A stretch of 64,000 bases of DNA from Candidatus Falkowbacteria bacterium (GTDB taxonomy: Bacteria > Patescibacteriota > Patescibacteriia > Patescibacteriales > Patescibacteriaceae), in the NCBI GenBank assembly GCA_026396835.1, contig JAPLWA010000004.1, positions 372,001-436,000 on the forward strand, in the 5' to 3' direction. The notes beneath the pieces are model-generated. The model had not been told where the DNA came from, made no database searches, and was given only the letters and a program-made list of their open reading frames with translations. Below, piece by piece: positions 10,817 through 54,110 of this stretch; position 1 is the first letter of the stretch, and the number at the start of each line of letters is the position of its first letter. The position numbers were made by a program, and so were the translations under genes.

Positions 10817-10898
10817 TAACCCCTTCCCCATCCCTTCCCCTTTTTATTAAGAAGGGGAAGGGTGCCCGAATCGTAGATGAGGGCGAGATAGGGTTATA
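10817..10898. repeat. GC-rich palindrome between murB and abrB
   Basis: A hairpin of CCCTTCCCCTT against AAGGGGAAGGG, set within outer partly complementary C-rich and G-rich arms (AACCCC...AGGGTT). It lies in the transcribed leader of abrB, downstream of its promoter. It resembles the dispersed GC palindromes elsewhere in the window but has different arm sequences. It could be a repeat element or a leader attenuator. Confidence 0.6.
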
Positions 10899-26848: not shown

Positions 26849-26862
26849 GTTTTAGTCGCGAA

Positions 26863-26909
26863 CTCTACCCCCAACCCCTCCTCACGCTAACGCGTAAGGA
26901 GGGGTGACT
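26863..26909 (+). repeat. Left terminal hairpin of the DUF559 element (family A)
   Basis: CCCCTCCT / AGGAGGGG outer stem, ACGC-TAA-GCGT inner stem, plus the CTCTACCCCCAA tail outside the hairpin. The inner arm supplies AAGGAGG next to an in-frame GTG. Confidence 0.85.
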
Positions 26910-26933
26910 TTTATTATCGAATATATCATTTAC

Positions 26934-27302
26934 ATGTCCTACATAAATAAACTTATTTTAGCTCGTGAATTCAGGAATAATCCAACTCAAGCTGAAAATA
27001 AATTATGGAGATTAATAAATAGAGATAAGATATTTGGTTATAGATTTAGACGACAATACGTCATGGCTGGATATATTTTAGATTTTTATTGCCCAGCCTT
27101 GAAGTTAGGCATAGAAGTAGATGGAAAAATTCATGATTTAAGAGATAATATAAATTATGATATAAAAAGAGAGCATATTATAAAACTCTATAATATTGAT
27201 ATTATCAGACTCACTAACAAAGAGATTGAAGATGATATCTTATCTGTGCTAAAAAAATTAACAAACTATATTAAGAATATAGAGAAAAAGTATTATCTCT
27301 AG
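26934..27302 (+). CDS. DUF559 protein (Vsr-like PD-(D/E)XK nuclease superfamily)
   Basis: 122 residues from ATG 26934; an in-frame GTG at 26904 inside the terminal repeat would add ten residues. The DUF559 signature is complete: REFRNNPTQAENKLWRLI, then YRFRRQYVMAGYILDFYCP, then LGIEVDGKIHD, which holds the E-x-D-G-x-x-H pattern of Vsr-related (EDxHD-like) nucleases, and IIRLTNKEIEDDI. It is probably a metal-dependent DNA nicking or cutting enzyme. The stop codon TAG overlaps the first bases of the right terminal repeat, so the gene fills the element exactly. Confidence 0.85.
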   Translation: MSYINKLILAREFRNNPTQAENKLWRLINRDKIFGYRFRRQYVMAGYILDFYCPALKLGIEVDGKIHDLRDNINYDIKREHIIKLYNIDIIRLTNKEIEDDILSVLKKLTNYIKNIEKKYYL

Positions 27303-27346
27303 TCACCCCTCCTTGTGCTTTGCACGAGGAGGGGTTGGGGGTAGAG
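27301..27346 (-). repeat. Right terminal hairpin of the DUF559 element (family A)
   Basis: Inverted copy of the left repeat. Outer stem and tail are identical; the inner stem is GTGC-AAA-GCAC, a compensated change relative to the left copy. Confidence 0.85.
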
Positions 27347-27354
27347 TTTGTGAA

Positions 27355-27393
27355 AATAAAAAAACGTCATTCAACTGTTGGGCTGAATGACGT
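27355..27393 (-). terminator. Terminator of the 55-residue gene
   Basis: Perfect 10-bp stem ACGTCATTCA / TGAATGACGT; on the minus strand it is followed by TTTTTTTATTTT. Confidence 0.85.
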
Positions 27394-50144: not shown

Positions 50145-50259
50145 ACCCCACCCCTAACCCCTCCCCATTCGCAAGCGAATAGGGAGGGGAAACTAGTTTT
50201 CATGTGAATATAAGTCACCCCTCCCTGCGCTATGCGCGGGGAGGGGTTGGGGGTAGGGC
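50145..50259. repeat. Two family A hairpins in inverted order without a gene
   Basis: Left hairpin CCCCTCCC-ATTCGC-AA-GCGAAT-GGGAGGGG, right hairpin (minus strand) CCCCTCCC-GCGC-ATA-GCGC-GGGAGGGG with tail CCCTACCCCCAA. They are about 20 bp apart. The spacer on the minus strand reads GACTTATATTCACATGAAAA, nearly identical to the start of the 53859 copy. It looks like an internally deleted DUF559 element. Confidence 0.75.
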
Positions 50260-53858: not shown

Positions 53859-53965
53859 CTCTACCCCCATCCCCTCCTCATCCGCCAAGTCGGCGAATAA
53901 GGAGGGGTGACTTATATTTACATGAAAACTAATATAGATAAATTATATAGATTAAGAACTATTAA
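53859..53965 (+). repeat. Family A hairpin with decayed start of a DUF559-like element
   Basis: The hairpin (53859-53912) has the CTCTACCCCCATCCCCTCCT arm, an inner CGCC/GGCG stem, and AGGAGGGGTGACTT. It is followed by TATATTTACATGAAAACTAA, matching the 50145-50259 spacer, and an ATG at 53922 opening MKTNIDKLYRLRTIK, which resembles the N-terminus of DUF559 proteins. The similarity then stops and no right-hand repeat is found. Confidence 0.6.
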
Positions 53966-53969
53966 GTTG

Positions 53970-54110
53970 TTTAACGAGTCATGGGGTTTGGGGGCTGAAT
54001 CGAGCGCCGTGATTGTTGATATAAAAGGCGAACAATGTAATAGCGAGTTGAAGCCCCCAAAGCTTTTGTTACTTTTGGCTACAAAAGTAAGCCCTAGCGG
54101 CAGCGTTAGA
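53970..54110. repeat. Stretch with two inverted repeats, no gene
   Basis: TTTGGGGGCT (near 53976) and AGCCCCCAAA (near 54053) form a 10-bp inverted repeat enclosing about 68 nt. CTTACTTTTG and CAAAAGTAAC form another hairpin near 54068-54092. A 70-codon frame crosses the region but has no protein-like character beyond its first 15 codons. Probably a mobile-palindrome remnant. Confidence 0.45.

Follow-up and report, generated by a model that had tools for sequence, protein, structure and literature searches.

The DNA segment analyzed here (the window, 64,000 nucleotides in its entirety) comes from Candidatus Falkowbacteria bacterium, a member of the Patescibacteriota (assembly GCA_026396835.1, contig JAPLWA010000004.1, positions 372,001 to 436,000 of the forward strand). 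It contains a compact unit in which a gene for a DUF559 nuclease is enclosed by two inverted hairpins, and which a first-pass annotation, made from the nucleotide sequence alone, had put forward as a candidate minimal mobile element. The unit has the following components, in window coordinates:

26861..27348, + strand: whole element (type B, defined below), 488 bp, inverted hairpin ends and DUF559 gene
26861..26909, + strand: left end, with outward tail AACTCTACCCCCAA, lower stem CCCCTCCT/AGGAGGGG, C.A mismatch, upper stem ACGC/GCGT and inner TGACT
26934..27302, + strand: DUF559 (PF04480) nuclease gene, 122 codons from ATG; alternative GTG start at 26904
27301..27348, - strand: right end, an inverted copy with upper stem GTGC/GCAC and the C.A mismatch retained; 2-bp overlap with the stop codon

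The 47-bp (26863-26909) and 46-bp (27301-27346) ends are inverted hairpins as originally described, and the match extends by 2 bp (AA/TT) on each side, so that the unit spans 26861-27348 instead of 26863-27346. Its inverted-repeat score is 33, compared to a maximum of 15.5 among 1000 Markov shuffles. The lower stem is constant, whereas the upper stem changes from ACGC/GCGT to GTGC/GCAC with pairing preserved; this covariation, reported in the first-pass annotation, is real and is accompanied by conservation of the C.A mismatch beneath it. The hairpin tails point outward and the DUF559 gene occupies the interior, with its stop codon (TAG, 27300-27302) running into the right repeat, as had been noted. 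The open reading frame (ORF) matches the PF04480/DUF559 profile with an E value of 1.2e-25, and ATG 26934 is a likelier start than GTG 26904. No T-run follows the hairpins of the unit, the sole terminator-like site found (27364-27393) being outside it, and an Rfam search gave no match.

A hairpin family with gene-bearing and gene-less members

The genome (1.05 Mb, 6 contigs) encodes five DUF559 genes, and all five are enclosed by hairpins. The pattern CCCTCYYN{2,30}RRGAGGG matches 57 hairpins in the genome compared to 3 matches for the reversed pattern, which served as the control; the search for further copies that had been proposed thus gave a clearly positive answer. Many of these hairpins form gene-less inverted pairs 60-170 bp apart (L202-L212 and window 50147-50258). 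The gene-bearing elements belong to two types: type B (the window copy, L004 and L005; ends CCCTACCCCC, tails CTACCCCC) and type A (L001 and L002; ends AACTCACCCC, tails CTCACCCC). The DUF559 proteins divide as the hairpins do, with 57-66% identity within type B and 46-48% identity between type B and type A. Sequence resembling the last codons and the stop of the DUF559 gene persists immediately inside the right hairpin of the gene-less copies (e.g. TTATCTATAGTTCCCC vs ATATCCATAGTTTCCCC), which indicates that these copies derive from gene-bearing ones by internal deletion.

In 24 of the 28 distinct hairpins of this genome (L001-L022, L187-L221), a single C.A mismatch (T.G on the opposite strand) is retained between the constant lower stem and the freely covarying upper stem. 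The hairpins of other genomes are mostly perfect, so that the mismatch is a feature of this lineage. Vsr-type enzymes act on T:G mismatches, and the conserved C.A (T.G) pair can be taken as a hint, albeit only a suggestive one, of Vsr-type activity.

Two further members of the family lie in the window:

50147..50258, + strand: non-autonomous copy, two inverted hairpins without a gene, 112 bp, similar to miniature inverted-repeat transposable elements (MITEs) and to REPINs
53859..54105, + strand: composite copy, a second repeat (GGGGTTTGGGGGCTGAATC...AGCCCTAGCGGCAGCG) fused to a type-B hairpin at the left

The second repeat, GGGGTTTGGGGGCTGAATCGAGCGCC...AAAAGTAAGCCCTAGCGGCAGCG, is fused at a constant point to either a type-A or a type-B left hairpin (window 53859-54105; L013, L015, L018, L019, L021, L215, L216, L218), as if these were chimeras in which a DUF559-type end is paired with a right end of another kind. 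In addition, L213, a gene-less element, is a hybrid whose left end is type A and whose right end is type B, a combination that suggests recombination between the subfamilies, and a further C-rich hairpin of another subtype (AACCCCTTCCCCATCCCTTCCCC..GGGGAAGGGTGCCCG) is located at 10817-10870 of the window.

Hairpin-enclosed DUF559 genes in diverse bacteria

Scanning a single genome for each species yielded 80 DUF559 loci, to which the loci from this genome, related genomes and plasmids were added. Inverted flanks with a score of at least 12 were detected for 64 of the 91 freestanding DUF559 genes, and for 50 at the stricter threshold of at least 15; the corresponding control values were 0/20 for DUF559 domains fused to large proteins, 7% for neighboring ORFs and 18% for pairs of flanks drawn from separate loci. 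When a strict C-rich hairpin was required on each side, 42 of the 91 freestanding genes qualified but none of the 20 fused genes and none of the 221 control ORFs. Thus, DUF559 genes are regularly flanked by hairpins across bacterial phyla, which had been one of the questions raised by the first-pass annotation. Members of the family are present in Bacteroidota, Cyanobacteria, candidate-phyla bacteria, Desulfuromonadales, Deinococcus and Alphaproteobacteria.

The copy on pSymB of Sinorhizobium meliloti Ak57 has near-identical 114-bp ends with about 4 differing positions. In Escherichia coli K-12, the DUF559 gene ycjD retains a single downstream hairpin (L256:1992-2040); across 5376 E. coli genomes, the median number of places similar to it is 19 per genome, and the E. 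coli form of the element is decayed. This hairpin may be the 'Box C' repeat known from the vicinity of envM/fabI, and the S. meliloti hairpin may be RIME1. A DUF559 gene of Neisseria gonorrhoeae (L252), which probably encodes the protein solved as 3HRL, is flanked by hairpin-containing repeats of about 100 bp that are direct rather than inverted. The possibility that DUF559 is the missing enzyme of the CGTC-type repetitive extragenic palindromes (REPs) (PMC3733652) was considered and rejected: DUF559 genes of Alphaproteobacteria bear the C-rich hairpin type, not CGTC.

Hairpin numbers, DUF559 and RAYT genes

Among 61 related genomes, the median number of hairpins is 23 in those that encode DUF559 and 2 in those that do not. 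The hairpin count correlates with the DUF559 count (rho 0.64; within-family permutation p 4e-4), and the correlation persists among the 24 genomes that lack REP-associated tyrosine transposases (RAYTs) (rho 0.59, p 0.002). RAYT genes were found in 37 of the 61 relatives. The RAYTs of related genomes (L237, L242, L249, L238) are bounded by a separate set of inverted hairpins, unrelated in sequence, such as TGTTGGCTCCATAGTCCC..GGGCTGTGGAGCC, and none of the 26 RAYTs examined in these genomes is accompanied by hairpins of the CCCTC..GAGGG type. The RAYT locus of the genome under study, tested in full, likewise contains none of the DUF559-type hairpins, and none lie beside the RAYT fragments at contig ends. 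These RAYTs with different hairpins of their own provide a positive control for the method and speak for separate RAYT and DUF559 systems. An identical Y1_Tnp fragment occurs at two contig ends (L023, start of C1; L024, end of C6), suggesting that the assembly is broken at a repeated RAYT-type gene.

Insertion sites and flanking duplications

Most of the hairpin copies are intergenic, and several full elements interrupt genes or operons. In Synechocystis B12, an element has inserted into and split a DUF1156 gene, which is intact in Nostoc, Planktothrix and Geminocystis, and on another plasmid of the same strain, a PglX-like methylase gene is split by a full element; at the latter site, Pseudanabaena galeata carries an in-frame, gene-less double hairpin of about 100 bp, and Planktothrix carries none. 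Deinococcus NW-56 has an element between the NAD-oxidoreductase gene and hpaE of the hpa operon, D. proteolyticus and D. wulumuqiensis (decayed) have it between hpaB and the oxidoreductase gene, D. aetherius has it elsewhere, and the hpa operons of D. deserti and D. ficus are free of it. In Sphingomonas, an element lies between sufB and sufC. The proposed comparison with relatives thus revealed several sites that lack the element, including one that holds a gene-less version. A clean strain-level empty site was not found in the S. meliloti, Sphingomonas and E. coli plasmid and genome collections; in S. meliloti, an insertion sequence (IS) was adjacent, and E. coli strains without ycjD have a different operon, eefRABCD, at that place (PMC12817139).

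The window unit is flanked by a pterin dehydratase-like gene on one side and, on the other, by a small membrane-protein gene adjacent to murF. In a congener (G003), the corresponding position is occupied by a DUF559 element with 68% protein identity, so that the window copy is an old insertion rather than a recent jump; another congener (G001) has no DUF559 gene anywhere. In G003, a type-B element is inserted inside a type-A hairpin.

The first-pass annotation saw no target duplication, and this holds for the window copy but not for the family, in which other copies bear long flanking duplications. Direct duplications with a score of at least 15 flank 8 of 74 elements compared to 0.15% of 1295 control segments (p about 4e-13), a count from which L095, L096, L067 and L128 were left out, the direct repeats there lying in repeat arrays. 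The duplications vary in length from 20 to 84 bp, and some copies are tens of bp away from the element end. Examples include:

L058: 84 bp, exact, 3' end of a gene
L112: 26 bp, exact, right copy touching the right end
L005: about 35 bp
L215: gyrB-like 3' end
L203: 20 bp

Given the variable lengths and the distance of some copies from the ends, these are not classical target duplications.

The DUF559 protein

Eleven residues (R13, T17, E20, W24, Q40, D49, E60, D62, G63, H66 and D75, numbered from residue 2) are common to 49 freestanding DUF559 sequences; among these, the invariant E20, D49, E60, D62, H66 and D75 are candidates for the conserved E, D, H and D active-site residues of EDxHD enzymes. 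The catalytic-type residues D49, E60, D62 and H66 are intact in the window protein. The predicted structure (predicted local distance difference test score, pLDDT, 83) gave its best Foldseek match to 3HRL (NGO0050; E 1.2e-6), followed by the catalytic domain of the homing endonuclease I-Bth0305I (E 3.4e-4, probability 1.0), with Vsr weaker; a type II methyl-directed restriction enzyme model also matched weakly. DUF559 has been termed Vsr-like or EDxHD (PMC12907096, PMC9403480), and the I-Bth0305I match is in line with the earlier placement of the domain in the Vsr-like superfamily that includes the EDxHD homing enzymes. All this fits a predicted role of the DUF559 protein as a nuclease or nickase. 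No enzyme of the DUF559/Vsr-type fold is known to carry out strand transfer, so that insertion would have to depend on host repair.

Mobility of the family and alternative explanations

Collectively, these observations provide good support for the existence of the element family and its past mobility. The window unit is probably the autonomous form of a mobile family whose sole protein is a freestanding DUF559 nuclease that would act on the ends, and which has gene-less, MITE/REPIN-like derivatives. The simplest reading is that the DUF559 protein recognizes and moves the hairpins, and the mobile-element proposal of the first-pass annotation survived the checks by which it could have been refuted. 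Under the proposed mechanism, DUF559 would recognize the extruded hairpin ends and nick the DNA at these ends and at the target, after which the element or its copy could be inserted via host replication and repair, with possible duplication of tens of bp of the target; widely spaced nicks or repair synthesis could yield long duplications, and internal deletion of the gene-bearing form would give rise to the gene-less double hairpins.

Several observations weigh against this interpretation. The family shows no fixed-length target duplication, the window copy looks vertically inherited within the genus, and about a quarter of the freestanding DUF559 genes lack clear inverted flanks in our test. 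Protein similarity and end similarity do correlate across 63 elements (rho 0.20, p 5e-4), which speaks for the interpretation, but the correlation is weak and shared ancestry is not controlled for. Hairpins are present in some genomes without DUF559, and the number of RAYT genes also tracks the number of hairpins (rho 0.57). Neither transposition nor cleavage has been observed.

The last of these correlations, which extends to DUF559-free genomes, together with the presence of RAYTs in over half of the relatives, is what speaks for the hairpins being REPs moved in trans by a RAYT (Y1/HUH transposase) or an IS200/605 relative, with DUF559 as a trapped passenger. We nevertheless regard this as improbable: RAYTs come with hairpins of their own, the DUF559-type hairpins are missing from the RAYT locus and fragments of this genome, hairpins track DUF559 in RAYT-free genomes, and the same gene in many phyla would not be expected of a random passenger. 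A RAYT as the owner of the hairpins was therefore rejected on the 0/26 count, with the correlation between RAYT and hairpin numbers retained as a caveat.

The fold similarity to I-Bth0305I, the closest match outside DUF559, the assignment of DUF559 to the EDxHD homing family (PMC9403480), the insertion of elements into other hairpins and the repair-like variation of duplication lengths are all consistent with a freestanding homing endonuclease gene that is copied by double-strand-break repair, the hairpins being its target or landing site and accumulating as repair scars. However, the copies within one genome are scattered over unrelated sites and have no flanks in common, the gene-less copies keep both ends and the gene-end remnants, and no intron or intein is involved, which makes this scenario unlikely. 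There is very little to recommend the third view, that the hairpins are ordinary terminators or insulators, or the regulatory part of a stationary DUF559 gene involved in defense or repair. The hairpins are indeed strong and mostly intergenic, and the weak restriction enzyme match hints at restriction, but the lack of T-runs, the dozens of gene-less inverted pairs, the insertions inside genes and the absence of such hairpins around control ORFs are hard to reconcile with it.

Implications and comparison with known systems

Beyond the mobility of the hairpin-bounded DUF559 family, it can be tentatively suggested, with somewhat less than even confidence, that a Vsr/EDxHD-type nickase working alone on hairpin ends (in this lineage with the conserved T.G/C.A mismatch), via widely spaced nicks or repair synthesis and in many phyla, defines an unrecognized class of autonomous elements that is the source of several orphan palindromic repeats, including the hairpin with about 19 copies in E. 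coli. If the mobility enzyme is indeed DUF559, then a 'domain of unknown function' that is widespread drives a new chemical class of minimal transposons, many orphan C-rich palindromic repeats of bacteria acquire an owner, and the way in which a lone PD-(D/E)XK-like nuclease moves DNA becomes testable, with laboratory-tractable copies available in S. meliloti Ak57 (pSymB) and E. coli K-12 (ycjD and its repeated hairpin). No description of hairpin-bounded DUF559 elements was found in the literature examined, which largely excluded subscription journals.

The comparison with REP/RAYT units made in the first-pass annotation is apt: in both cases, one small gene lies between inverted hairpins, gene-less inverted pairs are dispersed in the genome, mostly between genes, and the hairpin subtype matches the enzyme subtype. 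The differences are that the Y1/HUH transposase (PF01797) is missing from the DUF559 unit, being located elsewhere in the genome, and that the DUF559 enzyme is a PD-(D/E)XK-like nuclease. REPs are defined by the tetranucleotide GTAG (or CGTC) at the foot of the hairpin (PMC3733652), whereas the DUF559 hairpins are C-rich (CCCTC..GAGGG) with CTACCCC/CTCACCCC tails and do not belong to the GTAG families; the tail is CTACCCCC in type B and CTCACCCC in type A. Because the defining HUH enzyme is absent, the DUF559 element resembles a REP/RAYT system in its mode of operation but is not a member of that group.

With the EDxHD/Vsr-like endonucleases (I-Bth0305I, Vsr, NGO0050 and Caulobacter VsrA), the DUF559 protein shares the fold and the DUF559 signature and probably the conserved acidic and histidine residues, but those enzymes have been described as homing, mismatch-repair or uncharacterized proteins, and the papers found mention neither hairpins flanking them nor derivatives without the gene. 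Unlike EDxHD homing endonucleases, the DUF559 copies are not tied to a conserved homing site or to a self-splicing element. The Vsr repair endonuclease is linked to a cytosine methylase and nicks T:G mismatches; the DUF559 unit contains no methylase. Finally, inverted ends, autonomous and gene-less forms, and insertion into genes are shared with IS elements and MITEs, from which the DUF559 unit differs in that it encodes no DDE, serine, tyrosine or HUH enzyme, its ends are full hairpins, and rare duplications of variable length take the place of the fixed-length target duplication of classical elements.
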